24,040 nt of DNA from Candidatus Hydrogenedentes bacterium CG07_land_8_20_14_0_80_42_17 (GTDB lineage Bacteria > UBA8481), in the NCBI GenBank assembly GCA_002780065.1, contig PEWQ01000095.1, positions 1-24,040 on the forward strand. The letters are read 5' to 3'. Positions within the stretch are counted from its first letter, which is position 1. The number at the start of each line of letters is the position of its first letter. Positions 3,901 to 23,746 of this stretch are shown here, one piece after another. The notes below the pieces were generated by a model. The model was not told the origin of the DNA, did no database searches, and saw nothing but the letters and a program-made list of their open reading frames with translations. A program made the translations under genes and the position numbers.

Positions 3901-3929
3901 TTGACATCCAAAACTAAATTGTCAATATT
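3901..3929 (+). promoter_or_regulatory. Promoter for the ABC transporter, leaderless geometry
   Basis: Perfect -35 TTGACA (3901-3906), 17 bases, then AATATT (3924-3929) as a 4/6 -10, then six bases to ATG 3936. Predicted transcription start falls on or next to the ATG, and no Shine-Dalgarno is present. TTGACA (3901-3906) and TGTCAA (3920-3925) also form a 6-base inverted repeat that could be an operator; this is speculative. Confidence 0.55.
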
Positions 3930-3935
3930 TATGCG

Positions 3936-6212
3936 ATGAAAGCGTTTTCATTATCTATTCTAAATAAATATTGTGCGCGAATTTTATTCGGTTTCGCGTT
4001 CGCAATAGCTTTTTTTGCCACATCCTCGTCGGCTCAGCCTGAAAGAGTATTAAGAATTTGGGCGATGGGAGAAGAAGGAAAAAAGCTCGAAACTTTGATT
4101 AAACTTTTTGAAGCGGAGAATCCCGGAGTCAGAGTCGAAGCTCAATCAATTCCATGGGGTGCGGCTCATGCAAAACTTATTACTGCCGTTGTAGGAAAAA
4201 TTCCGCCGGATATTTCTCAAATGGGTACGACTTGGATGCCTGAATTTCGAGCAATGGACGCGCTCGAAAATCTGAATCCTTATATTGAAGCAGGAAAATT
4301 GTCCCGCGCAGATTTTTTCCCTGGCGCATGGGAGACTGTCAGTTATGACGAAGGAGTTTTAGGACTTCCTTGGTATGTCGAGACGAGATGCCTTTATTAT
4401 CGAAAGGACATTCTTGCATCTGTGGGCTTTGATCATGCTCCGAAAGATTGGAATGAATTAGTTGCGGTCGGAAAGGCTCTTGCCGGCAGACCGAATTCGT
4501 TCGGAATTAATCTGTCATTCTCTGATGAAGGATTATTTTCGATCTTTACATGGCAGGCCGGCGGGGAATTGCTGGAAATCAAAGATGGAAAAGTGAGCTC
4601 AAAGGTTCGAGAGGAACCTGTAAAACGCGGTCTGACTTTTTACGCAGATTTATTTAAAGAAAAGATTGCGCCGCTCGGAGAAGCAAAGGATATTTCTGTT
4701 GAACAAGGTTTTGATCTTGGAACAATGCCTATGTTCATATCAGGGCCATGGTCGATACATGTGCTCGATGAAGTGGCGCTGAATTCGAAAGGCAAATGGG
4801 CTATAGCGCCTCTGCCTAAAGGAGAAAAGTCCGCATCTTTTCTCGGAGGATGTAATCTCGTAATCTACAAGGATTCTCTAAACAAAGACCTCGCGTGGAA
4901 ATTTCTGGAGTTTGCTCTATCAACAAAAAATCAAATCGAGTGGTACAAAGCGAGCGACTGTCTGCCGCCAGGTCCGAAAGCATGGGAGGACACTCTGCTC
5001 GCCGCTAACCCGATGCTTTCTGCTTTTCGAATCCAGCTTCAATCTGCGCGGCCTACTCCGATGATTCCCGAGTGGGAACAGATTGGAGACGCAATTCGGC
5101 GCGAGATGGAAAAGGCTGTGAGAGGAACTAAAAGCCCTGACGATGCTCTTAAAGATTTGGATGCAGAGATTACTGAAATACTTAGCGCGCGCCCGGAAAA
5201 TCAGTCTGCATTCAATAAGTTATTGATACTCGGCGGCGCCGCCGTAATTTTACTCTTTGCTTTGCTTTACTATATGCTAAGACCTTTCAAAAAATCCGAG
5301 ATTGTCACGACTGGCGGATTGGATCTTAACGAGCACAAAGGTTACGGAAAATGGGTGGTGATATTTTTCGGACCTACTGCGGTTCTTCTTACAGTCTTTT
5401 TGATTCTGCCTGTTTTGGCCGCGTTTCTTATGAGCCTTACAAATTGGGATATCTATTCTGTTACAGACTGGCGAAAAGTCAGCGTTGTGGGATTTGACAA
5501 TTACGTGAAGATATTAAAGGACCCGCTCTTTTGGAAATCAGTGAAGAACACGCTGATATTTGCCGGTATCGGAGGACCATTGACAATAATAGTTTCGCTT
5601 TCGATGGCGCTTCTTTTGGAACGATTGACGCGCGCAAAGGCAATCTTCAGAACTGGTTTCTTTTTGCCGGTTGTCACTACGATGGTCGCTGTTGCCGTTG
5701 TGTGGCGTTGGATTTATCATCCTAAGTTTGGACTCCTAAATGCTCTATTGTATTATTTTGGATTTAGCGGAAAGGAGTGGCTTGGCGATCCAACGCTTGC
5801 GCTAGGATGTCTTATTGGAATGGCAGTCTGGAAGAACTTCGGCTACAACATGATAATCTTCATTGCGGGCTTGCAGAATATTCCGCATGTGTATTATGAA
5901 GCTGCGGAATTGGACGGCGCCGGGCGAGTCGAAAAATTTACAGACATTACTCTGCCGCTTCTCTTTCCGACTTTTATTCTCGTGACTATATTGACAACAA
6001 TAGGCTATCTGCAATTCTTTGCCGAGCCTTACATCATGACCGATGGAGGCCCGCTGGATTCGACTCTATCCGTTTCACTCTATCTTTATAGAAAAGGATT
6101 TAAGTTTTTCAAAATGGGTGAAGCCGCCGCCATGTCTTACATACTCTTCGTTATTATATTTATTTTCTCAATAGGACAGATGCTTTTAGCAAAAAAGAGA
6201 GAGACAAGATGA
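3936..6212 (+). CDS. ABC sugar importer: solute-binding protein fused to MalF-type permease
   Basis: One 758-residue protein joins two parts that are normally separate. Residues 1-33 are a signal peptide (cleavage likely SSSA|Q). Residues 35-420 are a type 1 extracellular solute-binding domain (IWAMGEEGKKLETLIKLFEAENPGV, DISQMGTTWMPEF, LPWYVETRCLYYRKD, FISGPW, FLGG). A membrane segment at about 428-448 follows, then a short basic linker and a six-helix permease (about 472-752) with the EAA loop EAAELDGAGRVEKFTDITLP (655-674) that contacts the ATPase. The extra helix brings the chain back to the cytoplasm so that the permease starts on the correct side. Substrate is unknown; the family carries mono- and oligosaccharides or glycerol phosphate. 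It overlaps the next permease by ATGA. No ATP-binding subunit or sugar hydrolase is encoded nearby. Confidence 0.93.
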   Translation: MKAFSLSILNKYCARILFGFAFAIAFFATSSSAQPERVLRIWAMGEEGKKLETLIKLFEAENPGVRVEAQSIPWGAAHAKLITAVVGKIPPDISQMGTTWMPEFRAMDALENLNPYIEAGKLSRADFFPGAWETVSYDEGVLGLPWYVETRCLYYRKDILASVGFDHAPKDWNELVAVGKALAGRPNSFGINLSFSDEGLFSIFTWQAGGELLEIKDGKVSSKVREEPVKRGLTFYADLFKEKIAPLGEAKDISVEQGFDLGTMPMFISGPWSIHVLDEVALNSKGKWAIAPLPKGEKSASFLGGCNLVIYKDSLNKDLAWKFLEFALSTKNQIEWYKASDCLPPGPKAWEDTLLAANPMLSAFRIQLQSARPTPMIPEWEQIGDAIRREMEKAVRGTKSPDDALKDLDAEITEILSARPENQSAFNKLLILGGAAVILLFALLYYMLRPFKKSEIVTTGGLDLNEHKGYGKWVVIFFGPTAVLLTVFLILPVLAAFLMSLTNWDIYSVTDWRKVSVVGFDNYVKILKDPLFWKSVKNTLIFAGIGGPLTIIVSLSMALLLERLTRAKAIFRTGFFLPVVTTMVAVAVVWRWIYHPKFGLLNALLYYFGFSGKEWLGDPTLALGCLIGMAVWKNFGYNMIIFIAGLQNIPHVYYEAAELDGAGRVEKFTDITLPLLFPTFILVTILTTIGYLQFFAEPYIMTDGGPLDSTLSVSLYLYRKGFKFFKMGEAAAMSYILFVIIFIFSIGQMLLAKKRETR

Positions 6213-7045
6213 AGAGCGAAAAAAATAATTTAGATCAATCTTCATTATTGATTTATGTTATAGCAATAATTATTCTGATTATCACTATCGCTCCGTTTCT
6301 TTGGATGGCTTTGTCTTCGATAAAACCTGAATCTGAAATCTTGCAGTTCCCGCCCAAATGGCTTCCGAGCCGCATTGATGTGTCTCATTACCGTGAACTT
6401 TTTGAGAAAGTAAACTTTCTTCAAAATTTCTGGAATTCTTTTATTGTGGCGATAAGCATTTCATTCATAACAATCTTAATAAACTCGATGGCAGGCTTTG
6501 TATTTGCGAAGTACAGATTCAAGGGAAGAGAACGACTCTTTACTTTAATGGTTGCGACAATGATGATTCCGGGACAAGTGACGATGATTCCGTCATTTAT
6601 GCTCTTGAAGTGGCTTGGACTTTTAAATAGTTATCTCGGACTTATCATTCCAGGTTCAGCATCGATATTCGCGATCTTTTTGATGAGGCAGTTCATGATG
6701 TCGATTCCTGATTCGCTTCTGGAGGCGGCGCGAATTGACGGCTGTTCTGAATGGAGAATATTCTGGCAGATCATGCTGCCGCTTTGCATGCCTGCTATAG
6801 CTACTCTGACTATTTTTACATTTATGAATTCATGGAACGACTTCTTCGGAGCATTGATCATTATGCTTGAAGAGTCTAAATACACTCTTCCTGTAGCCTT
6901 GGCGAATTTGAACGGCCAGCATGGAACAGAGTGGGGTATTCTTATGGCCGGTTCTCTGGTCACAATCGCTCCGGTACTTTTTGTTTTTCTCTTGATGCAG
7001 AGGCATTACATCCGCGGAATCGCGATGACCGGTCAGAAGAGCTAG
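6209..7045 (+). CDS. ABC sugar importer permease, MalG type
   Basis: The second transmembrane subunit of the importer, in the cytoplasmic membrane. The 278-residue length is standard. It has an N-terminal helix (about 14-35), PPKWLPSRIDVSHYRELF typical of the MalG/CUT1 family, NSMAGFVFAKYRFKGR, MIPGQVTMIPSF and the EAA loop EAARIDGCSEWRIFWQIMLP (172-191) for docking the ATPase. Start ATG 6209 overlaps the fusion gene stop, implying coupled synthesis of both membrane halves. The ATPase must come from elsewhere in the genome; shared MsmK/UgpC-like ATPases serving several importers are known. The gene ends 10 bases from the convergent LolA-like gene, leaving almost no room for a terminator. Confidence 0.94.
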   Translation: MKSEKNNLDQSSLLIYVIAIIILIITIAPFLWMALSSIKPESEILQFPPKWLPSRIDVSHYRELFEKVNFLQNFWNSFIVAISISFITILINSMAGFVFAKYRFKGRERLFTLMVATMMIPGQVTMIPSFMLLKWLGLLNSYLGLIIPGSASIFAIFLMRQFMMSIPDSLLEAARIDGCSEWRIFWQIMLPLCMPAIATLTIFTFMNSWNDFFGALIIMLEESKYTLPVALANLNGQHGTEWGILMAGSLVTIAPVLFVFLLMQRHYIRGIAMTGQKS

Positions 7046-7055
7046 TTACAACTAC

Positions 7056-7712: not shown

Positions 7713-7713
7713 A

Positions 7714-7893: not shown

Positions 7894-7942
7894 GAACCGT
7901 CGATACTGAAAATAGCTGACCGGAAAAGTTGTTTGCTGACAT

Positions 7943-9319
7943 TTACTTCTTCAATTTATTTTTGCCGCTTGAAGAGAACAAATTGTCTTCTACAAGTGTA
8001 TTGGGGGCTATTCGAGCTAGTATTGGACCTACAAGAGGCTTTGGCGTCAGATAGATACATTTTGACGAAATAGTTTCTCCTGACTCCGCAATCTCGATGA
8101 TATGTTCAGGAAGAGGATCATTGAGTAGAAACGTTGCATCTGCAAATCCTTCATCGACAAGTGAGACTGCTCTCTGCGGTGAAATTGACATCGAAAACTT
8201 TTCTAGATTTTCAGGCTTGTTCCATCCGATTCCAAGAATTCCGTCGAATACGATTGAATTGAGTACGCAGTAATCCAGCCTCTTCCATCTCCGCGACTTT
8301 TTTACATTCGACAGCCGCTCATAGCTCTCGGCATTTTTTAAGTACATTGCATAATACGCCTTGTCGCCGACATATAGTCCGTAGGTGTGATTTAGTTTTC
8401 CAACGTATTCTATTTCATCGAGAAGGTTAATAAGTTCTGCATCTTTGGAGCCTGGCTTCAAAAATTTATATCTCTCTATTTCAAAAAAATCTTCCAGTTT
8501 TATCAGAAGATTTTGACCGTCAATTCCGGGTGCTATTCCCGATTTCAATGACCAGTGCCGCGCCTTGAAAGAAAACTGCGAATGTTCAATATCGATCATC
8601 CAAGCAAAAATAAAGTTTGTGGAATCGAATTGCGAAATATTTTTATTTTCTTTTTTAATTTTATTGCTGTGCTTCACAGCGGCAAGATACCGCCCTGTTC
8701 CATCTAAGAGCGTCATCTTCTTTTTTGAAAGAAGCGGTTCTATAGCTTCATTGCGCGGAACCTTCCATATCGTATTTGAAGAACCGGCAGGATATTCGAA
8801 TTCATAGATAGGCTTGTTTTTTCTAATGCGAGCGATTGTGTCGTCGATAATTTCAGCGCTTTGCTCATCCGTTCTATAACCGATAGTGATTGGAGCAGTT
8901 TGGATTTGAAGCGATTCAAGCTGTTGCAATCGGTCATTTACAATCGCATCGTCGGTGAACTCGAAGATATCAGGTTTGTTAGGAGTGTTTAGCTCGAGCA
9001 TACCCATGAATCCTGTGACTGTTTTGCCGTCGCAAACTATTTCGAGAAGATAATAAGTCGAATCGACGATTGAAATAATTTTTTCTTTCAAAAAATTATC
9101 AAGAGTATTTTTTGCGCGGACATCCAGATCATCGTCAAATTTTTCGCCCGGCAATTCTCTAGAACTTTCAAATCTAACGAAGTTATTTATACTTTTAGAT
9201 GCGCGTTCCTGTCTCAATGCAAGATGCAGATCGTCGAACGGCGGAGTTACGATATTGGAAATTTCGTCAACTTTTTTTGGTAAAGACACGTATGATGTTA
9301 CTGGTAAAAATCTTGGCAT
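7943..9319 (-). CDS. DUF1015-family protein with altered DGHHR motif
   Basis: A 458-residue protein of the uncharacterised DUF1015 family. Supporting signs: the N-terminus MPRFLPVTSY..VDEISNIVTPPFDD (normally VxAPPYDV), NNFVRFE, the middle block APITIGYRTDEQSAEI (family: L.PIFGLY.D), and the C-terminal region with ISPQRAVSLVDEGFADATFLL and ECIYLTPKP-like end (family: STYFYPK). The usual signature ADGHHRYE is replaced by LDGTGRY (205-211), so both histidines are missing. The reaction of the family is not established to my knowledge; neighbours do not reveal it. It is the first gene of a reverse operon and has a promoter with leaderless geometry directly before ATG 9319. Base composition is like that of its neighbours. 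Confidence 0.78.
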   Translation of the reverse strand: MPRFLPVTSYVSLPKKVDEISNIVTPPFDDLHLALRQERASKSINNFVRFESSRELPGEKFDDDLDVRAKNTLDNFLKEKIISIVDSTYYLLEIVCDGKTVTGFMGMLELNTPNKPDIFEFTDDAIVNDRLQQLESLQIQTAPITIGYRTDEQSAEIIDDTIARIRKNKPIYEFEYPAGSSNTIWKVPRNEAIEPLLSKKKMTLLDGTGRYLAAVKHSNKIKKENKNISQFDSTNFIFAWMIDIEHSQFSFKARHWSLKSGIAPGIDGQNLLIKLEDFFEIERYKFLKPGSKDAELINLLDEIEYVGKLNHTYGLYVGDKAYYAMYLKNAESYERLSNVKKSRRWKRLDYCVLNSIVFDGILGIGWNKPENLEKFSMSISPQRAVSLVDEGFADATFLLNDPLPEHIIEIAESGETISSKCIYLTPKPLVGPILARIAPNTLVEDNLFSSSGKNKLKK

Positions 9320-9325
9320 ACGTCT

Positions 9326-9354
9326 TTTATATCAATTGAAAACCTTATTGGCAA
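9326..9354 (-). promoter_or_regulatory. Promoter for the DUF1015 operon, leaderless geometry
   Basis: On the reverse strand: TTGCCA (9354-9349, 5/6), exactly 17 bases, TATAAA (9331-9326, 5/6), six bases, ATG 9319. The predicted start of transcription is at the ATG and no Shine-Dalgarno is present. Confidence 0.7.
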
Positions 9355-9377
9355 TAACAAGTGCAAAAATTTAAAAT

Positions 9378-9453: not shown

Positions 9454-9558
9454 GTTAAAAATAACATTGCGAACTTTGCGAGAAAATTTTCTCTGTAAGA
9501 TTCCCTGCTTTTTCTTGCTTGACTATTATTTAATTTGGATTACTTTTATTTTACGAAA

Positions 9559-10947
9559 ATGAATAGATATATCTCAGTAATAGCGGCGCTCATCGTCGTT
9601 CAATTATTTTCGGCATGCGGCAATGAACTCGTCATTACATCTACTCCAACAGCTTCGCTTGTAAAAATAAATAGCGAAGATTATGGTCGAACTCCTTTGA
9701 CACTGAAAGATCTGAAAACCGGAGTTTATCGCGTTGAGGTTAATTCGAACGGATATGAACCTTGGAGCGCTGAAGTTGAATTAAGAAACAGTCAGTCTGT
9801 AAATGCTATCCTGAAGCAAAGTGCGCCTCCACCTATTCAACCGCCTGTTGTGACTCGTCAGATCAGTCAGACTTCATTGACGGTTTTTGCAGAACCTTCA
9901 GGCGCAATTGTGAAAGTGGATGGAAAGGAACGCGGAACCTCAAAGACGGGTGAAGGCATTTCAGTAAATTATTCGCAGATTCCGACGCTTGTCGAAGTCG
10001 CGGTTACTAAGCCCGGGTTTGAGCGTTGGATTCGGTCAGTTGCGATGGAGAGTCAGAGAGACAACAGAGTTTTTGTAAAGTTGAATCCTGCTTCTGATTG
10101 GTTTGACTATGTGACTGATGGAGAATTTCTGCGTAAGACGGTTCAGCAGGTTGTTTCAGCAACTTCGAATTTACCTACTTTGAGAAGAGCATCGTCGATT
10201 GCAGTTCTTTCAATTACGCATGCGGAGGGCTCTGATGAGCCTTTGCAGGCTCTTGTCGAGGATGCATTAATTTCAAATCTTGTGCAGGCGGGATTTACTC
10301 CGGTTGAGCGTGACGATCAGATGCTGATTCAACTTGCGCATTCGACGTCGGGTGATTCCATTCCGTATCGAGTTCTCACCGAGCACGAAAGTTTAGACGC
10401 TCCGTTTCTTTATGACGCTGAGATAGCAAATTCGAATACAGAAATTGTCCGTGAGAATTATCCGATAATCAATCGGACTCAAACGACAACTACATCGAAA
10501 GAAAATTGCGTGAGCAGTACTGAAGAAACTGTGTCAACTCGTGAGGAAGAGGGAACTAGAGCTTATCCTCAGACCTCATATCTGACAGGATATATTCCGA
10601 CAGCAGACCAATTTCTTGCATACCGAATTCTTGAGTGCGGCTTGTCAAAGACTCCGGTTATTGAAGGCGAACTTGTACCGGAGCCTATGTTGCATCGCTA
10701 TGCCAGCGTGAGAGTTCATCTCAGAGTAATAGACGCAAAGAACGGCAGAGTGACATGGGCGGGTTATTTGGTCGGCGAATCGAAGGACGAGATTCCGGAG
10801 CGCGTATCCGAGGAGCTTTCCAATCCGCCGAACAGATTAGCATCAGAGCCTTTACCTGATTCATGGCAGAGATTGAGGCATAGACCTCAAAGACATTTAA
10901 ATTCAGAAGGCATGGTCATCCCATCACCTCAAGTGCGCGACAGATAG
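9559..10947 (+). CDS. PEGA-domain lipoprotein with CsgG/FlgO-like C-terminal domain
   Basis: A 462-residue envelope lipoprotein. The start is taken at ATG 9559 because it places the signal peptide MNRYISVIAALIVVQLFSAC at the N-terminus; an ATG at 9535 adds eight residues. Cys20 is the lipidated residue, and +2 Gly is compatible with outer-membrane sorting. Two PEGA repeats follow (about 24-86 with TPTASLVKINSEDYGRTPLTL, and about 107-175 with AEPSGAIVKVDGKERG). A proline-rich hinge (PPPIQPPV) separates them. The region from about 213 (IAVLSITHAEG, ALVEDALISNLVQAGFTPVE) resembles the CsgG/FlgO/LpoB nucleotide-independent fold where SIAV starts a sheet and the E.D..M pattern follows. PEGA domains are thought to bind surface polymers; the function here is unknown. 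Confidence 0.85.
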   Translation: MNRYISVIAALIVVQLFSACGNELVITSTPTASLVKINSEDYGRTPLTLKDLKTGVYRVEVNSNGYEPWSAEVELRNSQSVNAILKQSAPPPIQPPVVTRQISQTSLTVFAEPSGAIVKVDGKERGTSKTGEGISVNYSQIPTLVEVAVTKPGFERWIRSVAMESQRDNRVFVKLNPASDWFDYVTDGEFLRKTVQQVVSATSNLPTLRRASSIAVLSITHAEGSDEPLQALVEDALISNLVQAGFTPVERDDQMLIQLAHSTSGDSIPYRVLTEHESLDAPFLYDAEIANSNTEIVRENYPIINRTQTTTTSKENCVSSTEETVSTREEEGTRAYPQTSYLTGYIPTADQFLAYRILECGLSKTPVIEGELVPEPMLHRYASVRVHLRVIDAKNGRVTWAGYLVGESKDEIPERVSEELSNPPNRLASEPLPDSWQRLRHRPQRHLNSEGMVIPSPQVRDR

Positions 10948-10970
10948 TTCGGAAGCGTGAATAGCGACGG

Positions 10971-10993
10971 CAATTCAATACGAATGGTTAGCC
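10971..10993 (+). repeat. Short dispersed repeat before purN
   Basis: A 23-base segment starting CAATTCAATACGAA and ending GGTTAGCC. A 22-base version with three differences lies at 23073-23094 before the lipoate-ligase-like gene, where it continues into a perfect palindrome. In both places a TGTGATGA or CGTGATGA start region follows within 45 bases. Confidence 0.7.
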
Positions 10994-11009
10994 TCGTGTC
11001 AATCAATGC

Positions 11010-11642
11010 GTGATGAGCGGTTTTAAGAAAAAAATCTTTGCAGTTTTTGTTTCCGGCATTGGAAGCAATCTTCAAGCAATTATTGATGCAGTAGAAAACG
11101 GCATAATTAAAGGTAAGATTGGAATAGTTGTCTCTGATAAACCGAACTGCAAAGCATTAGAATGCTCGCGGCTGGCAAATATTAAAACATTTGCTTTTGA
11201 ACCAAAAAAATTCAGCTCTCGAAAAGAGTATGAAATATTAATTGCTGATGAGTGTGAAAAAGCCGGATGTGAATTCATTGTGCTTGCCGGTTATATGCGG
11301 CTCCTTTCTCCATGGTTTGTAGCTCAATACAAAAATAGGATTATTAATATTCATCCATCTCTGCTTCCAAATTTTCCCGGCACTCATGCAATTCAAGATG
11401 CGATCGAGGCTGGGGCTAAGATGACAGGCTGTACTGTTCATTTTGTAGATGAGGGAATTGATACAGGTTCGATTATTGCTCAACGTGAAGTTGTAATCAG
11501 CAATGACGATGATTTAGATTCGTTGACGGAAAAAATTCATCTAGCCGAGCATGAACTTTATCCTAAAATTGTGAATTTGTTATGCTGTAATAAAATCGAA
11601 AAGAGGCAGCTGCAGACTTTAGCCTGTGTTCGAAAATTTTGA
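11010..11642 (+). CDS. purN: Phosphoribosylglycinamide formyltransferase
   Basis: Transfers a formyl group from 10-formyltetrahydrofolate to GAR, the third step of purine synthesis. The 210-residue length is normal. Motifs: VSGIGSNLQAII (phosphate-binding), SDKPNCKAL, AGYMRLLSPWFV, the catalytic NIHPSLLPNFPGTHA (Asn and His) and the FVDEGIDTGSIIAQ signature with the catalytic Asp. The start is either GTG 11010 or the adjoining ATG 11013; neither has a clear ribosome binding site. The gene stands alone rather than in a pur operon. Its last ten or so codons (QLQTLACVRKF) are written by a degenerate copy of a repeat (11606-11631), so the C-terminus may have been replaced, but the fold is complete before it. 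Confidence 0.95.
   Translation: MMSGFKKKIFAVFVSGIGSNLQAIIDAVENGIIKGKIGIVVSDKPNCKALECSRLANIKTFAFEPKKFSSRKEYEILIADECEKAGCEFIVLAGYMRLLSPWFVAQYKNRIINIHPSLLPNFPGTHAIQDAIEAGAKMTGCTVHFVDEGIDTGSIIAQREVVISNDDDLDSLTEKIHLAEHELYPKIVNLLCCNKIEKRQLQTLACVRKF
11606..11631 (+). repeat. Degenerate dispersed repeat forming the purN 3' end
   Basis: This 26-base segment matches 23089-23114 at about 21 of 26 positions, including the core CTTTAGCCTG. It lies in frame within purN and supplies residues AAUG-independent tail QLQTLACV, that is, the last part of the protein. Similar GCAGGCTTTAGCCTGC palindromes are widespread intergenic repeats in bacteria. Confidence 0.5.
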
Positions 11643-11682
11643 TTAGTTTGAAAAACTCCGAACGATTAAATAAAAATTTTGC

Positions 11683-11711
11683 TTGGAGTTTAGAAAAGTT
11701 TTGAATATAGT
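11683..11711 (+). promoter_or_regulatory. Promoter for rex, leaderless geometry
   Basis: TTGGAG (11683-11688), 17 bases, TATAGT (11706-11711, 5/6), six bases, ATG 11718. No Shine-Dalgarno precedes the ATG. No Rex-type operator (TTGTGA..TCACAA) is seen here. Confidence 0.6.
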
Positions 11712-11717: not shown

Positions 11718-12353
11718 ATGAACAAAATATCAAATGCAACAATTCGAAGATTATCGATTTATCTTCGACAACTGGAAGAAATTATAGATGAGAAGATTGA
11801 AACTGTTTCGTCTGCTGAAATTGCTAAAATGTCTGCTATCAAAGACACTCAAGTCAGAAAAGATTTAAGCTTTTTCGGTTCGTTTGGAGTGCGAGGAAGA
11901 GGTTATTCTGCCAAGGAACTTGCTGAAAAACTGAAGATAATTCTCGGATTGAATAAAGAATGGAAAGCCGTGCTGATTGGCGTCGGTTCGCTTGGAAAAG
12001 CGCTTTCAGGATACAAAGGTTTTGCAAAACACAACATTAATTTTATAGCTGTATTAGATTCCGACCCCGCGAAAATCGGAGCGCATATCGGAGACAAAGT
12101 CATAGAACGCTATTCTGCCGCGGCTCTGAAGGAGTGCTGTGAAAAATCAGGTGCGCAAATTGCTGTGATAGCTGTTCCCGCGAGTGAAGCTAAGAAAGTT
12201 TGCGAAGAGGTTATACAGGCAGGCTTCAAAGGAATCGTGAACTTTGCGCCCGTCAGATTGCATCTTCCTGAAGAGATAGCTCTTTATTCAGTCGATCTCG
12301 CAATTTCATTTGAGCACATTACCTTCAAGCTGAACCGCAATTCGGACGAGTGA
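11718..12353 (+). CDS. rex: Redox-sensing transcriptional repressor Rex
   Basis: Rex senses the NADH/NAD+ ratio and represses fermentative and respiratory genes when NADH is low. The 211-residue protein has the N-terminal winged helix (about 5-65: SNATIRRLSIYLRQLEEI, SSAEIAK, QVRKDLSFFGSFGVRGRGY), a Rossmann motif GVGSLGKAL (88-96), the VLDSDPAKIG block (112-121) and the C-terminal dimer region GIVNFAPVRLHLPEEIALYSVDL. All are standard. It follows purN by 75 bases but has its own promoter. A natural target would be genes such as the lactate/glycolate dehydrogenase, but I find no Rex operator in the window. Confidence 0.95.
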   Translation: MNKISNATIRRLSIYLRQLEEIIDEKIETVSSAEIAKMSAIKDTQVRKDLSFFGSFGVRGRGYSAKELAEKLKIILGLNKEWKAVLIGVGSLGKALSGYKGFAKHNINFIAVLDSDPAKIGAHIGDKVIERYSAAALKECCEKSGAQIAVIAVPASEAKKVCEEVIQAGFKGIVNFAPVRLHLPEEIALYSVDLAISFEHITFKLNRNSDE

Positions 12354-12379
12354 CAAATGGGGCTTAGCCTGAGCCTGAT

Positions 12380-12784
12380 ATGATCGACCCTGATGAGTAT
12401 GTAATAGTTCCGGCACTTCTTATCGGAAAGCGTGATTCTTCCGTTCAGTTCGAGGTTGTGGTTGTTGGCTTTTCCGACAATGGATTAGGTTTCAGATCTC
12501 GAGATACAAGGCTTGGGCTTTCTTCTGTTGAGTCTCTACTTCGTCAGCCATTCGAGTGCAAATTTAATGTTCAAAATTTAAATACAGATGAAATCATTGT
12601 GAGAATAATTCGAATTGAAGCATGCCGAAAAGATCCGGCTTATTTATATTTTGGCGCGGCGGATTTTTTAAAAATTTCAGATCTGGATCAGTTGATGTTT
12701 CAATCAGGAATAAAGAAATACGAAAAGAAGATTCATCCTCAGCCGATGATTGCTACTCCTCTTCCGCCTCCTACTAAGAAATGA
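12380..12784 (+). CDS. Small protein of unknown function, possibly PilZ-like
   Basis: A 134-residue soluble protein that I do not recognise with confidence. The pattern VPALLIGKRDSSVQFEVVVVGFSDNGLGFRSRD resembles the beta-barrel core of PilZ domains (a small residue-Ser-x-x-Gly-hydrophobic turn), with a later LYFGAADFL strand, but the arginine RxxxR element that binds cyclic di-GMP in PilZ is not evident. The C-terminus is rich in Pro and Lys (PQPMIATPLPPPTKK). It follows rex by 26 bases in the same direction with no separate promoter, so it is probably co-transcribed. Its last 11 bases overlap the 3' end of the convergent phosphoribosyltransferase-like gene. The upstream gap contains GGCTTAGCCTGAGCC, a trace of the GC-rich repeats seen elsewhere. 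Confidence 0.7.
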   Translation: MIDPDEYVIVPALLIGKRDSSVQFEVVVVGFSDNGLGFRSRDTRLGLSSVESLLRQPFECKFNVQNLNTDEIIVRIIRIEACRKDPAYLYFGAADFLKISDLDQLMFQSGIKKYEKKIHPQPMIATPLPPPTKK

Positions 12785-13931
12785 GGCTCTTAAGGTAATT
12801 TATTTTTTTTCTGCAAACGGGCTTAAAACTGCCTGGCTCAAGTGCAAATTTAATTCTTTCATCGCTCCAGAGCCATTTGAATCGAGAATAAAGAGTATTG
12901 CTTTCTTCAATAGTTATTCCGTCCCAGTAATTATTTTTATTAGCCATAAGAAGTTCAGGCGAGCCTTTTTTTAGTTCTGAAATATTTTCAAAATACATCT
13001 CAAGAGAAAATCGTGAGTTATATTCTTCCCAGAGTGAAAGATTTTTTTCGACTGCTATCTTCATCTGTTTCTCCCAGAAATTTAGAATGTCACGAATATG
13101 GTTGATAGGCTCAAATCCCTTTTTACCTCCGTCATAAATCACACAGCCTTCCAGAGCAGTAGGCATCTTTTCAAATTGAGAATGTTCGAACTCCGGCGCG
13201 AGCAATGCTCCAAATTTGTAATTCTTAAGTAGATCTGTGTCGGGGGAAGAGTTGTGAAGCGGAGTATTTTTATTTGCCAGAGCAAAACGTCCTTCCAGAT
13301 AAATCAGTATTGTTCGATCGTATTCAGGAAACTTATTCCTGAATATTGAATCCCATTTAGAGAGAATTTTTTCCGCTTCGATACAGCCTATTGTAATGAA
13401 AATAAAATTCTTGATAGTGATTTTATTGGATTCGAGAAAATGCATTACATATTCGATTGCATCATTCAGAGATATTCCTGACGCTACTATGTCTGCGGTA
13501 TAGATTGTTGCATTTTGAGGGATCTGAAATTTCCGATAAGAATTATCGCTGGTCTCGTATTTGCCGTTTTGAAGCACACGTTGACTTGATACGTAGGAAC
13601 TTGAGTGCCACTTGTAACCGAACGCATTGTTCAATGCTCTTCCAATTTGAAAATTCAGACTGCCTCTCAATATGTGATAGACATTGACCGTCTTTGAATC
13701 GATGCAACTTAGTCGTTCGAGTATATTCAACCCTTTAAGCGCGTTAATGATTCCGTTCGACATGAGTTTTGTGAAGTCGCAGTTAATGATTTCAGGATAG
13801 TTCATTAAATTTCTAGTATCGCGAGTAGAGACTATGTAACGCTTCAGCCTTTGCGAGAAATTTCCGCCTTCTATGGAATAGACAGAGACTGCTTCATCTT
13901 TGAATCTTCTTACTAGTTTTTCCGATTGCAT
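12774..13931 (-). CDS. Uncharacterised phosphoribosyltransferase-like protein
   Basis: A 385-residue cytoplasmic protein. Two segments look like a type I phosphoribosyltransferase: HILRGSLNFQIGRAL (86-100), comparable with the R-G-G/S-x-x loop that binds pyrophosphate, and IYTADIVASGISLNDAIEY (143-161), comparable with the PRPP signature (hydrophobics, D-D, hydrophobics, A/T-S/T-G-x-S/T). Only one acidic residue (Asp147) is present where most enzymes have two. The remaining C-terminal half (about 240-385: LLAPEFEHSQ, GCVIYDGGKKGFEPINHIRDIL, WSDERIKFALEPG) is not recognised. Substrate unknown; no obvious metabolic neighbour. It is a single-gene unit with its own promoter and converges on the 12380 gene with an 11-base overlap. 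Confidence 0.8.
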   Translation of the reverse strand: MQSEKLVRRFKDEAVSVYSIEGGNFSQRLKRYIVSTRDTRNLMNYPEIINCDFTKLMSNGIINALKGLNILERLSCIDSKTVNVYHILRGSLNFQIGRALNNAFGYKWHSSSYVSSQRVLQNGKYETSDNSYRKFQIPQNATIYTADIVASGISLNDAIEYVMHFLESNKITIKNFIFITIGCIEAEKILSKWDSIFRNKFPEYDRTILIYLEGRFALANKNTPLHNSSPDTDLLKNYKFGALLAPEFEHSQFEKMPTALEGCVIYDGGKKGFEPINHIRDILNFWEKQMKIAVEKNLSLWEEYNSRFSLEMYFENISELKKGSPELLMANKNNYWDGITIEESNTLYSRFKWLWSDERIKFALEPGSFKPVCRKKINYLKSLIS

Positions 13932-13939
13932 ATCAAAAA

Positions 13940-13968
13940 AGTTTACGCTTGAATTCGGTAGAGGTCAA
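13940..13968 (-). promoter_or_regulatory. Promoter for the phosphoribosyltransferase-like gene
   Basis: On the reverse strand: TTGACC (13968-13963, 5/6), 17 bases, TAAACT (13945-13940), eight bases, ATG 13931. No Shine-Dalgarno is present, so the transcript would have almost no leader. Confidence 0.6.
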
Positions 13969-14002
13969 AATGAAAAAGGTGCTTGAGACGCATGCCTATG
14001 CT

Positions 14003-14200
14003 GCACGTGCGGGGCGTCCATTGACGCGGGGCGTCCATTGACGCGTAGCGCACGTGCCTCCAGATGAGATGTAATATTCCATCTCGCAAAGAACGTGTGA
14101 AATAATTGAAAAATGGAAATTGGAAAAATCAAATTTCCAATTTGCACTTTCCAATTTGCACTTTCCAATTTGCAATTTCAAATATAACGAGAGACGTTAT
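14003..14200 (+). repeat. Dispersed repeat, copy B (two 17-base units plus AT-rich module)
   Basis: Order: GCACGTGC (14003-14010); two identical 17-base units GGGGCGTCCATTGACGC (14011-14027, 14028-14044); GTAGCGCACGTGCCTCC (14045-14061); a GATGAGATG link; then an AT-rich module. In the latter, AAATTGGAAA (14117-14126) and TTTCCAATTT (14134-14143) form a perfect 10-base hairpin, and a 14-base word CCAATTTGCACTTT is repeated at 14137 and 14151 with a variant at 14165. ATAACG/CGTTAT (14184-14200) is a further small hairpin at the edge. Bases 14011-14187 match the reverse complement of 23880-24040 closely. The whole 13932-14271 spacer otherwise holds only promoters. Confidence 0.9.
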
Positions 14201-14235
14201 GGAGGCTCAGGTACCTTTTCAAATCACTAATTGGG

Positions 14236-14265
14236 TTGCGCTTATTGCCTCTAAAAGAATAGAAT
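14236..14265 (+). promoter_or_regulatory. Promoter for the D-lactate/glycolate dehydrogenase, leaderless geometry
   Basis: TTGCGC (14236-14241), 18 bases, TAGAAT (14260-14265, 5/6), six bases, ATG 14272, with no Shine-Dalgarno. Confidence 0.6.
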
Positions 14266-14271
14266 TTTTAC

Positions 14272-16884
14272 ATGTACGAAAAATTATTCAGGAATTTATT
14301 GTTTCGATCAGACATTGCAACTCGTATTGTTTATGCAACTGATTCATCATTGTTCAGATGCATGCCCGCCGGAGTTATATTTCCACGTTGCGAAGAAGAC
14401 ATTTTAGAGTCAGTTCGCATTGCTGGAGTGAACGGAATAAACGTTCTTGCGCGTGGAGCAGGAACGTCGCTTGCGGGGCAAGCTCTAACTTCAGGAATTA
14501 TTATTGACCTTTCGCGTTTTAATGAAATTGTCATAAACCCTGATAAAAAAACTGCATGTGTGAAACCATGCGCGGTGATTGATGAGATAGATCGCTTCTC
14601 GTCTCCATTTTCATTGTGCGTAGGACCGTCGCCTGCCTCGTCGAACAGAGCCACCATAGGAGGGCTTTTATCGAACAATGGTACGGGCGCGAGGTCGATT
14701 GTTTACGGTATGGCGTCGGACATTTTGCTTTCGGCTCGCGTTTTGTTATCTACCGGAGAGATTAGAACTTTTAGTCGCAACGATCTGGATCTCTCGAATC
14801 CTTTCGATTTATCTGTTGCAGAAGTTTTGAACTCTGTTCGAAATTCAAGCAGATGGCCGGCAACATGGCGCTCTGCTTCAGGACTAAATTTCAAAGCCGT
14901 TGATAAGTATAACTCATTGCTTCAGCTCTTCTGCGGCGCGGAAGGAAGCCTAGGAATAATTTTGGACGCAGAGATTGCTCTGGCCGAAAAGAAAGATAAA
15001 ACCTCGATTGCAATCTTTACTTTTGACGATCTTATTTCTGCGATGAAAATGGTCGAGCCGCTTCTTGAAACAAAACCGCTCGCGATTGAATTGATGGATA
15101 AAAAACTTATTGAGTTGGCGAAAAATAGTTCGAACTTTACTCCTGCATTTATCGACAAAATTCCTACCGCTCTGCTTGCTGTGGAATTTGAAGGCGAAAA
15201 AACAAAAGATTATATTGCAATGGGCGCGGAAAAGATTTTGCTCGACTCAAAAAGTCAGTTGGATCTTTGGCGGACAAGAAAAGAAGGACTGGGAATTTTG
15301 ATGTCATCGAGAAGTAAACGGAAGCCCGTGCCGTTTATTGAGGACTGCAGTGTGCCGGTTCGAGCTCTACCTGAATATGTTCAACGTCTTGATGAAATCA
15401 TAAAACGAAATGGAACCGAGAGCGCGTATTATGCTCACGCGTCGGCGGGATGCCTTCATATCAGGCCTATGCTCAATTTGCGAGATGAAGCAGACAGAAA
15501 ACGAATGAAAAATATAATGGCTGAAACGGTTGAACTGCTTATTGATTTGCGCGGTTCTTTGACAGGAGAGCACGGTGACGGCCGTTCAAAAAGTCCGTAT
15601 ATTGAACGCCTTTTCGGGAAAGAGATCACCGAGTCGTTTAAAAAAGTTAAACGTATTTTCGATCCAAACGGAACTTTTTCCGCTGCCGGCGAAGCAGGAA
15701 TGCGCATTGATTTACCATCAAAGAGTTTTAAAACTTTTCTTCGTTGGCCGGGCGAATTTTTTGAAGAAGTCGAGCGATGCAATGGAGAGGCCGCTTGTAA
15801 GAAGCTCGATGGGCTCATGTGCCCGTCTTATCAGGCTTCGAAAGATGAACGGTTATCGACTAGAGGCAGAGCAAATCTTTTACGCTCATGGCTTGCGGGC
15901 GAGAATGTCGAAGATGAATTGAAAGAGACTTTGTCGAAATGCCTTGCGTGTAGAGGCTGTTCATTTGAATGCCCTTCTCAAGTAGATATGGCTAGATTGA
16001 AGGCAGAGTTCCTCAATCATAGAGGTGCTGGAATTCGAGATATTTTCTTTTCGAATTTTGATACTCTTTCCAAAATCGGAAATGCTTTTGGAATTCCATT
16101 TCAGGGGATTGTGAAATCAGTTATCGGAATTCATGAAAAGATAAAGTTGACAGCTCCGGTTCAAAAAAGATTTTCCGATATCGTCCCATTGAAATATTCA
16201 GAAGACTGCGATGCGGTACTCTTCGTCGATACTCATATAGAATTTTACGAACCGAAAATAGGTGTTGCCTTAATGAAAATTGCGAAGATCCTGGGAATAA
16301 AAATTTCTCCTTTGCGCAGCGGATGCTGCGGCAGACCCGCTTTTTCAAGAGGAATGCTCGAAAAGGCAAAGAAACAGGCTGAAGGTATAAACCTTCCGGG
16401 CACACAGCCAATTATAGTTGTGGAGCCTTCATGCTTTTCTATGATGAAGGAAGATGCTCCAATGCTTTCCAAAAAGTGTGAGGAGATTTCAAAGCGGGTT
16501 ATATCTGTCGAAAGTTTTCTTATGCGATATTCCGATCGCATTGTAAAAAAGAGATTGAAGAATCGAATCAGTATTCTTTTTCATTCTCATTGCCATCAGA
16601 AAGCTTTGAAAGAAGAGGCTGGAAAAGAGCTTTTAAAGATTGCCGGCGATGTTGAGGAACTAGCTTGCGGGTGCTGTGGAATGGCAGGAACATTCGGCTA
16701 TGAAAAAGAAAATTACAATCTATCGCTTGCGATAGCGGAGAAAACTTTTTTACCTTCGATACGAAATTGGAGCGGAGATTACGTAGCAATATCAGGACGT
16801 TCATGCAGAGAGATGGCGCAGAGGACTGGGAAAGTCATTAAACATCCGATCGAGATTTTATTGGAAATGATGAGGGAGGAATAG
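14272..16884 (+). CDS. FAD-linked D-lactate/glycolate-type dehydrogenase with Fe-S and CCG domains
   Basis: An 870-residue membrane-associated oxidoreductase that unites a GlcD-like and a GlcF/GlpC-like half and oxidises a 2-hydroxyacid, most likely D-lactate. FAD-binding (PCMH) domain about 30-240: P..VIFPRCEEDI, RGAGTSLAGQ (61-70), TIGGLLSNNGTGARSIVYG (128-146). FAD-oxidase C-terminal domain to about 475: HASAGCLHIRP, GEHGDGRSK (432-440), FDPNG. Iron-sulfur region: C503, C509, MCPSY (C517), STRGRANLLR, then CLACRGCSFECP (C557, C560, C563, C567). Two cysteine-rich CCG motifs: GCCGRPAF (684-691) and HCHQK...CGCCGMAGTFGYE (773-811). Length is slightly below the 950 or so common in this family, mainly at the N-terminus. 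An aspartase remnant follows after three bases. Confidence 0.93.
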   Translation: MYEKLFRNLLFRSDIATRIVYATDSSLFRCMPAGVIFPRCEEDILESVRIAGVNGINVLARGAGTSLAGQALTSGIIIDLSRFNEIVINPDKKTACVKPCAVIDEIDRFSSPFSLCVGPSPASSNRATIGGLLSNNGTGARSIVYGMASDILLSARVLLSTGEIRTFSRNDLDLSNPFDLSVAEVLNSVRNSSRWPATWRSASGLNFKAVDKYNSLLQLFCGAEGSLGIILDAEIALAEKKDKTSIAIFTFDDLISAMKMVEPLLETKPLAIELMDKKLIELAKNSSNFTPAFIDKIPTALLAVEFEGEKTKDYIAMGAEKILLDSKSQLDLWRTRKEGLGILMSSRSKRKPVPFIEDCSVPVRALPEYVQRLDEIIKRNGTESAYYAHASAGCLHIRPMLNLRDEADRKRMKNIMAETVELLIDLRGSLTGEHGDGRSKSPYIERLFGKEITESFKKVKRIFDPNGTFSAAGEAGMRIDLPSKSFKTFLRWPGEFFEEVERCNGEAACKKLDGLMCPSYQASKDERLSTRGRANLLRSWLAGENVEDELKETLSKCLACRGCSFECPSQVDMARLKAEFLNHRGAGIRDIFFSNFDTLSKIGNAFGIPFQGIVKSVIGIHEKIKLTAPVQKRFSDIVPLKYSEDCDAVLFVDTHIEFYEPKIGVALMKIAKILGIKISPLRSGCCGRPAFSRGMLEKAKKQAEGINLPGTQPIIVVEPSCFSMMKEDAPMLSKKCEEISKRVISVESFLMRYSDRIVKKRLKNRISILFHSHCHQKALKEEAGKELLKIAGDVEELACGCCGMAGTFGYEKENYNLSLAIAEKTFLPSIRNWSGDYVAISGRSCREMAQRTGKVIKHPIEILLEMMREE

Positions 16885-16887
16885 AAA

Positions 16888-17236
16888 ATGAAGACTCGAA
16901 TTGAAAAAGATTTTTTGGGCGAAGTAGAGGTTCCATTCGAAAAATATTATTGAAGAGATAGAACTGTTGAGCTCTGCGTGTGAAAGTTTCGCTAAGTTTT
17001 GCGTAATGGGTTTGGAAGCAAGAAAAGATAATATAAAACGTCATTTGGAAGATTCGTTGATGACAGTCACAGCATTGACTCCGAAGCTAGGTTATGACCG
17101 CGCAGTTCAAGTTGCTATGACTGCTTTTGAAAAGAATATATCTTTGCGCGAAGCAGTTATTATTCTTGGTTTACTATCTGCTGAAGAATTCGATGATGCA
17201 GTTAAGTTTGAAAGAATGCTTGGCTATAAAAGATGA
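16888..17236 (+). pseudogene. aspA: Aspartate ammonia-lyase remnant with large internal deletion
   Basis: Aspartase converts aspartate to fumarate and ammonia. ATG 16888 with a GGGAGG ribosome binding site (16873-16878 region) starts MKTRIEKDFLGEVEVPFEKY, the exact N-terminal pattern of the aspartase/fumarase family, then stops at TGA 16951. A different frame continues from about 16943 as IIEEIELLSSACESFAKF, then CVMGLEARKDNIKRHLEDSL, VTALTPKLGYDRAVQVA and ISLREAVIILGLLSAEEFDD to TGA 17236, the normal C-terminus of the same family. Roughly 360 central residues, including the GSS catalytic loop, are gone and the junction is out of frame. The C-terminal piece has only a TTG (16967) as a possible start. 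The gene lay three bases behind the lactate dehydrogenase, so it was probably in its operon. Confidence 0.87.
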
Positions 17237-17386
17237 TTTTCAAAGATATTTTAGGATTATGTATCCTGCAAAAAGAAGAACTAGTGCAGGAGCAACTGCA
17301 TACTTATACCTTTTTGCTCTTCTGACATAATGCTGAAGATTTATAGCTACAATCACGATCTTGTTATCGGTTCGAAAAGAAAAAAC

Positions 17387-17441
17387 TTAACTTCTTTAAA
17401 AAAATTATGTAGTATCATCCGAAGTCGATCGTAACGGTCGA
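17387..17441 (+). promoter_or_regulatory. Promoter and 5' leader hairpin of the ytxH gene
   Basis: TTAACT (17387-17392), 17 bases, TAGTAT (17410-17415, 5/6); transcription would start near 17422. The leader holds TCGATCG-TAA-CGGTCGA (17425-17441), a 7-base stem with one G-U pair, then a strong GAGGAGG (17455-17461) six bases before ATG 17468. This is a leadered transcript, unlike several others here. Confidence 0.6.
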
Positions 17442-17467
17442 ATAACTCGAATCGAGGAGGCAGGAAA

Positions 17468-17797
17468 ATGGCAGAGAAGAAGAGCGGCATAGGCAGTGTC
17501 ATAAAAGATACTTTGCTTGTTGCTGGAGGAGCAGTTGCAGGAATAGTTGGCGGGCTTCTGTTCGCACCGCAGTCAGGTGAAAAGACGAGGCGTCAGATTG
17601 CAAGAAAAATCGAAGATACAAAGGATCAGGTTGTAGAACTTGGCGATGATATGAAGGAAAAAGCTATAGATGTTTCCAGAGACGTAAAGAAGAAGATTGA
17701 GTCGGGAACCGATTATGTTGTAGAGAAGAAGGATGCGCTAGTAGATACATTCTCCGGCAAGATTGGCGATCTGAAGAAAAAGTTTACAGGCAAATAA
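17468..17797 (+). CDS. YtxH-domain protein
   Basis: A 109-residue protein of the YtxH family, often general-stress related and membrane-anchored; exact function is not known. A single hydrophobic segment (about 14-32, DTLLVAGGAVAGIVGGLLFA) is followed by the family hallmark APQSGEKTRRQI and a long charged helix with heptad-like Lys/Asp/Val spacing (about 45-105), probably coiled coil. The ribosome binding site is strong and a sigma70-type promoter lies upstream. It precedes the secreted unknown gene by 16 bases, so both may be one unit. The 17237-17386 stretch before the promoter holds no gene. Confidence 0.9.
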   Translation: MAEKKSGIGSVIKDTLLVAGGAVAGIVGGLLFAPQSGEKTRRQIARKIEDTKDQVVELGDDMKEKAIDVSRDVKKKIESGTDYVVEKKDALVDTFSGKIGDLKKKFTGK

Positions 17798-17813
17798 ATT
17801 TAGCTTTTGGAGT

Positions 17814-18722
17814 GTGAATCGCTCTACGAATATTAATACGCGTTTTATTGTTGTTTTTTTTCTGAGTTTGTATTTTTTGTCTGCTGCTCCAGTGTGGAGC
17901 GATATTGAGATACGAAAAAGAGTTGAACGACCTGGCGAATTGCAGATTCTTCTTCCATACTCTAGAGAAAAGCGGGCAGTGAGATTGGAACTCAGTTTAT
18001 TTGCAGGGACTTGTGTTTCAGCGATTGCATCATGGAATCCTGGTGATAGAAATTTATCAGCTCGAATTTTGTCGCGTGTTAAAAATGACCGAGAGCTTTC
18101 AAATATTTACGGACAGAGTCCTATTGCAATGGGCGCGGCTGTTGATTCCGACGGCCTCCATGAAATAGTTCTGGAAGATGCGCGCGGCGGCGATACAGTT
18201 CTTCTCACAATACAAATTTCGTGGTCAGAAGCTTTGAAAGAAACGGCGCGGAAAATTAGAAATGTTCGGGAAGAAGCCGAACGCATTTTTTATTCATCGG
18301 ATACAACTCAGCAAAATCATTTAAATCGTATCGAATGGATTTCGTGGCCCGAAGGAGGAACGATATCTCGTAATGAACTCTTCGGAAAGGGATTGACGAT
18401 TCGTTTCGAACATGAACTTTCGGCTCTGCAATTCAGTCAGGGAATAAGACTTGAAATAGGTCTGACAGGGACTCAGCACGGTCTTACGCGATACGAAGAA
18501 GTTTTATTTACTCTTAAGCAGTCGGGCAAAGAATTATCTTTAAAACCGTCGACAACGCTGTTTGTTCCGAAGAACGTGCCTTTGAGAATCTATATCGACA
18601 GCGAGCTCATTCGGGATTTTGAGAGAGCTGGCTTAGACCTTGAAGGTTCGGGATTTAAACTCCCGAGCGGAGACGGAAGAGCCGGCGGAATTTTCAGATC
18701 TCAATTTTTTTTGAAGAATTAA
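17814..18722 (+). CDS. Secreted protein of unknown function
   Basis: A 302-residue protein that starts at GTG 17814. Residues 1-29 (FIVVFFLSLYFLSAAPVWS) form a signal peptide with probable cleavage after VWS or near it. The mature part is rich in beta-type segments (ELQILLPYSREKRAVRLELSL, TVLLTIQISW, GIRLEIGLTG, LRIYIDSELI) and has one helical stretch around 140-162 (EALKETARKIRNVREEAERI). I recognise no family. GGAG at 17807-17810 is too close to GTG to be a normal ribosome binding site, so the start is not certain. It is co-oriented with ytxH and ends in a four-base overlap with the convergent lipoprotein gene. Confidence 0.8.
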   Translation: MNRSTNINTRFIVVFFLSLYFLSAAPVWSDIEIRKRVERPGELQILLPYSREKRAVRLELSLFAGTCVSAIASWNPGDRNLSARILSRVKNDRELSNIYGQSPIAMGAAVDSDGLHEIVLEDARGGDTVLLTIQISWSEALKETARKIRNVREEAERIFYSSDTTQQNHLNRIEWISWPEGGTISRNELFGKGLTIRFEHELSALQFSQGIRLEIGLTGTQHGLTRYEEVLFTLKQSGKELSLKPSTTLFVPKNVPLRIYIDSELIRDFERAGLDLEGSGFKLPSGDGRAGGIFRSQFFLKN

Positions 18723-19222
18723 AAAAGCTCATCGCCGTTTTGCTGAATAAGTTTCCAATTGCCGTTTTCAAGAGTAAATTTAAGTTCTGTAATACCATCA
18801 GTCATTTCGTGTTCGCCACTGCTTCGATTTGCTCTTCCTCGCCGCCAATTTATGACTATTACACCTTCTTCATTTTCTACATTTATTCTCTGTGATAGCA
18901 AAGTATAAGAGTAGCCGTAAAATTCATTCAGACCGTTATCTATATTCATCTTCATCATATCGCGGGAAGGAACATATCGGTCGGAAACAAAATCTAAAAA
19001 AGAGAAAGAGTCTTCACGTTCGATGCATTGAGTCATAGAAAAAAATGTGTTCATTAAATTAGCCTCTGGGTTTTGAGTCTCTTGAATTGTCTTCGAGTTT
19101 GAATCAGAGCAGGCAGAGAGCAGAAACCCTAATAAGAAAATTGAGAGAAAAATAAATCTATTAATAAAGTTCTTAAATTGCTCGAAAGTGTCGATATGAC
19201 ACCTTTTTAAATCTCGACCCAT
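18719..19222 (-). CDS. Small lipoprotein of unknown function
   Basis: A 167-residue lipoprotein. The signal region FINRFIFLSIFLLGFLLSAC gives lipobox LSAC with Cys38. The mature domain (PEANLMNTFFSMTQCIEREDSFSFLDFVSDRYVPSR... to LEFKFTLENGNWKLIQ-like end) has the helix-helix-sheet order of NTF2/SnoaL-like folds, with the usual W-K-L-I ending; that fold is an inference from pattern only. ATG 19222 lies inside the Gfo/Idh gene, overlapping it by 16 bases, and is the only standard start before the signal peptide. Residues 5-12 (LKRCHIDT) are encoded by a dispersed repeat, so the N-terminus may have been created by insertion of that repeat. Confidence 0.8.
   Translation of the reverse strand: MGRDLKRCHIDTFEQFKNFINRFIFLSIFLLGFLLSACSDSNSKTIQETQNPEANLMNTFFSMTQCIEREDSFSFLDFVSDRYVPSRDMMKMNIDNGLNEFYGYSYTLLSQRINVENEEGVIVINWRRGRANRSSGEHEMTDGITELKFTLENGNWKLIQQNGDELF
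19185..19208 (-). repeat. Dispersed hairpin repeat at the 3' end of the Gfo/Idh gene
   Basis: Reading on the reverse strand: AAAAAGGTGTCATATCGACACTTT, here cited by position since only its halves need stating: AAAAAGGTGTC and GACACTTT pair as a stem with a bulged G and loop ATATC. A 24-base copy with two differences lies at 23686-23709. On the forward strand the stem is followed by CCTTTTT, so it could also work as a terminator in that direction. Confidence 0.65.
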
Positions 19223-20214
19223 CCGCCTTTACCTTTCAACGATTCAGTTAATGCATTAAGAATCTTGATAACTTTTGCACCGGAAAAACCGTCTGAAAGC
19301 GGTTTCTTGCGATCTCTGACGCATTCTATGAAATGCTTTGCCTCGTTCTTTAGAGGCTCAGCCGAGGGCAAGCGCGGAAGAAGAATGTCTCCAGTTTGAA
19401 TTGAAAGAAATTGGCCGTAGGTCGTGAACTGCTGGCGTTGAGTCTCAATCTTTCGGTCAAATATTTTCAGCTTTTCCGTTGCGGCTGTGTCGTCGATGAC
19501 TGCCATCTTTTCCGTTCCAATTACAGATAGCTCACGCACTTTTTGCGGGTCGAGCCATGAGACGTGTCCGTGAAAAATAATTCCATCCTGATACTTGATG
19601 GTATAGAAGACAACATCTTCGATCTCTTTTTGAAGAAAGGAAAAACCGACGGCTTGCACTGCTTCCGCATTCTTTCCAACGAGCCAGTTGCTGACGGCAA
19701 TATCATGCGGTGCGAGCGACCAGAGCGCATTTTCGCAGGAACGGACTATTCCGAGATTTACTCTTCTTGCGTAAAGATATCTGAGCGCGCCGAGCCCGCC
19801 TTCTCTGAGTCTTCGTTCGGTTTCAATGTAAGCCGGATGATACAGAAGAAGATGTCCGACCATTAAAACTCTTTCGTTTTTTTTCGCAAACTCGGAAAGC
19901 TGAATTGCCTCATCGTAATTTAGAGTGATAGGTTTTTCTACGAAGAGGTCTTTACCCGACTCTAGGACTTTCATTCCGAGTTCGAAGTGTGTCTCAGCCG
20001 GAGTTGCAAGAACAACTGCGTTTAAGTCTTCTCCAAGCATATTTTCGATAGAAGTGAAACGCTTTGCGTGAGGAGCAATTTTGCCTGCAAATTCCAAACG
20101 ATTAGCATCAGCATCCACGAGAGCGCTTACGCCTATTTCAGAAACCTCATTGAATGCTCTGACTAGATTAGGTCCCCAATATCCCAGTCCTACTACGGCA
20201 AGTTTTATAGTCAT
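19207..20214 (-). CDS. Gfo/Idh/MocA-family sugar oxidoreductase
   Basis: A 335-residue NAD(P)-dependent dehydrogenase acting on a sugar or nucleotide sugar. The Rossmann motif GLGYWGPNLVR (9-19), ATPAETHFELG (70-80), the catalytic EKP (93-95) and GHLLLYHPA (120-128) are standard; APHDIAV (168-174) carries the conserved His-Asp pair. The WlbA/WbpB-like sequence near the end (LPRLPSAEPLKNEAKHFIECV) is typical of UDP-sugar 3-dehydrogenases and related enzymes, so a role in surface-sugar synthesis is likely but the substrate is not shown. It is divergent from the phosphohexomutase gene across a 116-base spacer and overlaps the downstream lipoprotein gene. Confidence 0.93.
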   Translation of the reverse strand: MTIKLAVVGLGYWGPNLVRAFNEVSEIGVSALVDADANRLEFAGKIAPHAKRFTSIENMLGEDLNAVVLATPAETHFELGMKVLESGKDLFVEKPITLNYDEAIQLSEFAKKNERVLMVGHLLLYHPAYIETERRLREGGLGALRYLYARRVNLGIVRSCENALWSLAPHDIAVSNWLVGKNAEAVQAVGFSFLQKEIEDVVFYTIKYQDGIIFHGHVSWLDPQKVRELSVIGTEKMAVIDDTAATEKLKIFDRKIETQRQQFTTYGQFLSIQTGDILLPRLPSAEPLKNEAKHFIECVRDRKKPLSDGFSGAKVIKILNALTESLKGKGGWVEI

Positions 20215-20220
20215 ATAAAG

Positions 20221-20249
20221 AAATTAGTTTTTTATTTTGATTTGAGCAA
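20221..20249 (-). promoter_or_regulatory. Promoter for the Gfo/Idh gene, leaderless geometry
   Basis: On the reverse strand: TTGCTC (20249-20244), 17 bases, TAATTT (20226-20221), six bases, ATG 20214. The hexamers are weaker than in the other cases, but the spacing is identical. Confidence 0.45.
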
Positions 20250-23743: not shown

Positions 23744-23746
23744 GAG

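Follow-up and report, generated by a model that had tools for sequence, protein, structure and literature searches.

Promoters and intergenic features of the window

The window, that is, the whole stretch of 24,040 nucleotides analyzed, is one complete contig of a draft genome of 2.39 Mb (207 contigs, estimated 87% complete). Six of its genes have a sigma70-like pair of -35 and -10 elements that leaves only 6–8 nt to the ATG, and rereading of the sequence gave for the six pairs the same places, strands and spacings as the original prediction. On the forward strand, TTGACA-17-AATATT-6-ATG (3901–3929; ATG at 3936) is the promoter of a sugar ABC gene, a predicted leaderless coding sequence (3936–6212) for a fusion of a solute-binding protein with an ABC permease (SBP_bac_1 + BPD_transp_1); TTGGAG-17-TATAGT-6-ATG (11683–11711; ATG at 11718) stands before the predicted leaderless gene of a Rex-type redox repressor (Put_DNA-bind_N + CoA_binding; 11718–12353); and TTGCGC-18-TAGAAT-6-ATG (14236–14265; ATG at 14272) before that of an FAD-linked oxidase with Fe-S/CCG domains (14272–16884), also predicted to be leaderless. 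On the reverse strand, TTGCCA-17-TATAAA-6-ATG (9326–9354; ATG at 9319) and TTGCTC-17-TAATTT-6-ATG (20221–20249; ATG at 20214) precede predicted leaderless genes for a DUF1015 protein (7943–9319) and a GFO/IDH/MocA oxidoreductase (19207–20214), while TTGACC-17-TAAACT-8-ATG (13940–13968; ATG at 13931) precedes a coding sequence (12774–13931) predicted to be leaderless or to have a leader of 1–3 nt, for which no Pfam family and no match in the relative genome G001 were found.

The promoters were scored by a sigma70-type scheme of fixed, E. coli-like weights. In all six cases, the best sigma70-like promoter within 0–29 nt before the ATG was the one at 6–8 nt, with P values against dinucleotide-shuffled sequence of 0.001 (3936), 0.003 (9319, reverse), 0.008 (11718), 0.001 (13931, reverse), 0.006 (14272) and 0.026 (20214, reverse). 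The last of these is the weakest of the six promoters, the -10 element of 3936 is imperfect (AATATT, not TANNNT), and that of 9319 (reverse) reads TATAAA. Of the six genes proposed to open transcription units, 11718 is likely, but not certain, to do so, as purN ends on the same strand 75 nt upstream.

Three genes of the window, hicB (3640, reverse), ytxH (17468) and the phosphohexomutase gene (20331), had been cited as carrying Shine-Dalgarno (SD) sites. They do carry them, and none has a promoter at 6–8 nt. Upstream of the phosphohexomutase gene (20275–20330, forward strand), the best-scoring promoter, TTGAAC-17-TAGAAT (20275–20303), lies 27 nt before the ATG and is followed by the SD site GGAG (20321–20324). 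The gene at 9559–10947 is intermediate between leaderless and leadered. Its upstream region (9519–9558, forward strand) holds TTGACT-16-TACTTT-12-ATG, a possible near-leaderless arrangement from whose position a short leader of 5–6 nt is predicted, and a second element, TATTTT, at -12 without a -35. As a candidate for a seventh leaderless gene it was dropped, because the ATG is 12 nt away from its best promoter.

Other features of the window are recorded here in their own right. The union of solute-binding protein and ABC permease in a single polypeptide (3936–6212) is a less usual arrangement; the G001 relative is fused in the same way and is 57% identical to it over residues 31–757. After the FAD oxidase gene, a short frame (ATG at 16889) stops at about 16953 and reading resumes in another frame at 17006–17236; the whole, 16889–17236, is possibly a small gene that has suffered a frameshift or has decayed. 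A dispersed intergenic repeat (GCGTCCATTGACGCG...GCACGTGCCTCC...GATGAGATG) occupies 3794–3847, 13993–14187 and 23741–24040; it consists partly of 17-nt tandem units (TCAATGGACGCCCCGCG), and one 157-nt pair is 90% inverted-complementary. It has more than 35 further matches in the genome and probably breaks the assembly, since many of them are close to contig ends. Similar short intergenic remnants (CAATTCAA(T/C)ACGAA(T/C)GGT..., GGCTT(T)AGCCTG) are located at 10963–11012, 12354–12379 and 23055–23128, directly before the gene starts 11013, 12380 and 23129. Neither an SD site nor a near promoter was seen by eye before these three starts, nor by promoter scoring before 11013 and 12380. No Rfam family matched in the window.

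Position of the promoter across the genome

The genome-wide analysis covered 81 stretches amounting to 914 kb, window included, i.e., 38% of the genome. Genes were called by a simple finder of our own, based on a Markov coding score, that picks starts blind to upstream motifs, and E. coli was run through the same pipeline as a control. The original prediction had proposed looking for a TANNNT peak at -12 to -7 before first-in-operon genes. Such a peak was found: TANNNT begins at exactly -12 in 25 of 201 first-of-unit genes, against 6.3 per offset elsewhere (maximum 13; p = 1.6e-8). The signal is restricted to genes likely to begin a unit, being still present at intermediate gaps (11/104 versus 2.7 expected) and without significant enrichment in in-operon genes (6/257 versus 3.6 expected). 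In E. coli it was absent (0/74).

The element at -12 is linked in phase to a sigma70-type -35 (TTG...) lying 16–18 nt before it. Of the 36 genes that show TANNNT at -12 (first-of-unit and intermediate together), 11 have a TTG starting at -35 and 5 have one starting at -34 (16/36), versus 10 and 8, respectively, of the other 269 genes (18/269); no comparable TTG excess between these two sets was present at any other offset. The composite TTGNNN-N16..18-TANNNT was also searched before all ATGs that are preceded by non-coding DNA and begin a frame of 100 codons or more. Distances of 6, 7, 8 and 9 nt from composite to ATG occurred in 27, 11, 8 and 7 cases, and each other distance between 0 and 25 nt in 0–4, while control ATGs of frames of at most 30 codons gave a flat profile (13–24 per distance). 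E. coli yielded one composite at 6 nt and otherwise about none, and no peak was seen in samples of about 100 kb from each of four other bacteria.

Expressed per gene, 42 of 293 unit-first genes have the composite at 6–9 nt, versus 6, 5, 10, 7 and 3 in five decoy distance classes (mean about 6; Poisson p = 3e-21, or 6e-18 on the 38 genes that remain after subtracting the window's four). With TANNNT alone, there were 91 genes over a background of about 50, an excess of some 41 genes (14%). At least about 14% of the unit-first genes are thus predicted to be leaderless; this minimum is conservative, since many genuine -10 elements do not conform to TANNNT. As 6 of the approximately 10–12 unit-first genes of the window have the leaderless geometry, the window overstates its frequency.

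Concerning SD sites, they are nearly absent from the genes with a near promoter (3/42, versus 99/251 of the remaining unit-first genes; p = 1.6e-5). The composite promoter itself takes different distances in the two classes: in genes with an SD site it lies at 20–39 nt in 17 and at 0–9 nt in 3, and in genes without one at 0–9 nt in 34 and at 20–39 nt in 7 (Fisher p = 4.5e-7, or 2.4e-6 without the window). The anti-SD sequence at the 3′ end of 16S rRNA is intact (GGATCACCTCCTTTC), which indicates that SD use is real and that both modes coexist. Since the SD site is nearly absent where the promoter is near, and the same promoter is found 20–39 nt back in SD genes, the genome combines a leaderless and a leadered architecture, and the two are coupled.

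Interpretation, alternatives and conservation

In sigma70 promoters, transcription normally starts 7 nt after the -10 element. We regard it as very probable that the genes in question have a housekeeping promoter of this type placed so that the start site would coincide with the A of the ATG, or precede it by 1–3 nt. The resulting mRNA would have neither leader nor SD site, and ribosomes would presumably bind its 5′-terminal AUG directly, as with other bacterial leaderless mRNAs; the ordinary SD-dependent genes of the same genome would use the same promoter some 20–40 nt upstream. The sharp left edge of the distance distribution at 6 nt would be expected if no start site may lie beyond the A of the ATG. 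It is from the position of the promoter that we infer both the 5′ end of the RNA and translation from a 5′-terminal AUG. To that extent, the -12 peak, the phase link to the -35, the anticorrelation with SD sites and the mirror image in leadered genes support the earlier view that this lineage commonly makes leaderless mRNAs.

Start calling is always uncertain, and it might be argued that the called ATGs are false and the true starts are further downstream, so that the promoters would drive normal mRNAs with short leaders. This is very improbable, given that domain profiles begin almost at the called starts: position 1 of the profile falls on residue 3 in the Rex DNA-binding domain and in GFO/IDH/MocA, and elsewhere in the genome the alignments begin at residue 2 (Pyr_redox_2 in the lpd-like protein) or 3 (glycyl-tRNA synthetase alpha, glyQ). 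The G001 homologue of the DUF1015 protein (9319, reverse) aligned from residue 1, so that among the six window genes at least three (Rex, GFO/IDH/MocA and 9319) have a start fixed by homology. Besides, a downstream SD site plus start within 30 codons was found in just 1 of 34 composite genes versus 22 of 259 others, and the distance peak is sharp to one base.

It is equally improbable that the TA-rich element at -12 is not a promoter but a non-canonical ribosome-binding or translation-enhancing signal, like the AT-rich elements of Bacteroidetes. A fixed distance to the start codon, in genes where the element stands in for an SD site, would suit such a role. Against it stand the phase link to TTG 16–18 nt upstream, the occurrence of the element with the same -35 at 20–39 nt before SD genes, and the lack of significant enrichment in in-operon genes. 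Finally, a choice by eye of chance matches in AT-rich intergenic DNA, where TANNNT has a high background (some 3% of genes at each offset), can practically be dismissed, in line with the original argument from the constancy of the spacings, as the position-resolved counts, the decoy distances, the ATGs of short frames and E. coli all reject it.

The leaderless-promoter reading was followed in G001, a genome of the same phylum and order but another family (576 kb sampled, GC 57%). There the composite lies at 6–9 nt in 9 genes, none of them with an SD site, versus 0–2 at decoy distances; TANNNT at -12 without a -35 gave a weak signal (4 versus 1.0, p = 0.02). Clear retention of the geometry was observed in two of the five window genes compared, rex (57% identical; TTGACA-18-TACTAT-6-ATG) and the homologue of the solute-binding protein-permease gene (TTGACG-18-TATACC-6-ATG). 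It was ambiguous in the DUF1015 relative and not kept in the GFO and FAD-oxidase relatives. Over the sampled loci, the ortholog test of geometry was not significant (3/6 versus 4/22, p = 0.14, with few pairs), so that conservation across this wider sample is suggestive only. Expression of this kind, with full -35 and -10 elements, could be an ancestral trait of the whole phylum, kept at rex and the sugar ABC gene across families and having two states, the promoter on the ATG without an SD site or about 30 nt back with one; we consider this conceivable, but slightly short of an even chance.

A Pfam scan of the predicted leaderless genes alone gave a mixture of housekeeping, metabolic and regulatory functions (lexA, glyQ, CTP_transf_like, lpd, aconitase, mutB and others), with no obvious regulon among them. 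A poorly sampled phylum would join the users of leaderless mRNA, which bears on the age and spread of this mode of initiation. Annotation programs that rely on SD sites will place many starts of the lineage wrongly. The clean pattern of two distances would make leaderless genes recognizable from a partial metagenome assembly without RNA data.

Comparison with known leaderless systems

The leaderless mode is already known in kind, including the Deinococcus and actinobacteria with which it had been compared at the outset, and others; what is new is the lineage, which is not known to have been looked at for it before. Zheng et al. 2011 (PMC3160421) described that TANNNT about 12 nt before starts marks bacterial leaderless genes, in 207 of 953 genomes from many phyla, the leaderless character being inferred there, too, from promoter position. 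According to the citing text in PMC9581028, 21.6% of bacterial species are predicted by GeneMarkS-2 to transcribe genes without a leader. The genes reported here share with these TA-led leaderless genes the TANNNT near -12, the lack of SD sites and the mixture with SD-led genes; they differ in lineage, the phylum being represented here by two genomes, and in the frequent -35.

In Mycobacterium tuberculosis (Cortes et al. 2013, PMC3898074), leaderless and SD-led transcripts are described as coexisting, as they appear to do here, with the difference that in that account the 5′ ends were mapped experimentally, while here they are predicted from promoters.

The closest likeness in placement is to the "-10 region adjacent to ORF" of Deinococcus-Thermus, with the -10 set 6–7 nt before the ATG. 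Zhong et al. 2025 (PMC12340547) demonstrated experimentally that such a near-ATG -10 drives leaderless mRNA in Deinococcus, mostly without a -35. For D. deserti, the positive control run with our own gene finder was small and noisy, but an ATG-anchored scan of a plasmid sample showed the same peak at 6–7 nt and a single composite match, at 5 nt. The present promoters are not of this -35-less type: TTG is found at -35/-34 in 16 of the 36 genes, an enrichment unlike the D. deserti sample, and the frequency of leaderless genes is lower than the approximately 30–40% reported for Deinococcus. In the same study, a -35 set 17 bp upstream boosted the Deinococcus leaderless promoter, and it is this boosted form that the present genome, with its frequent -35, resembles.
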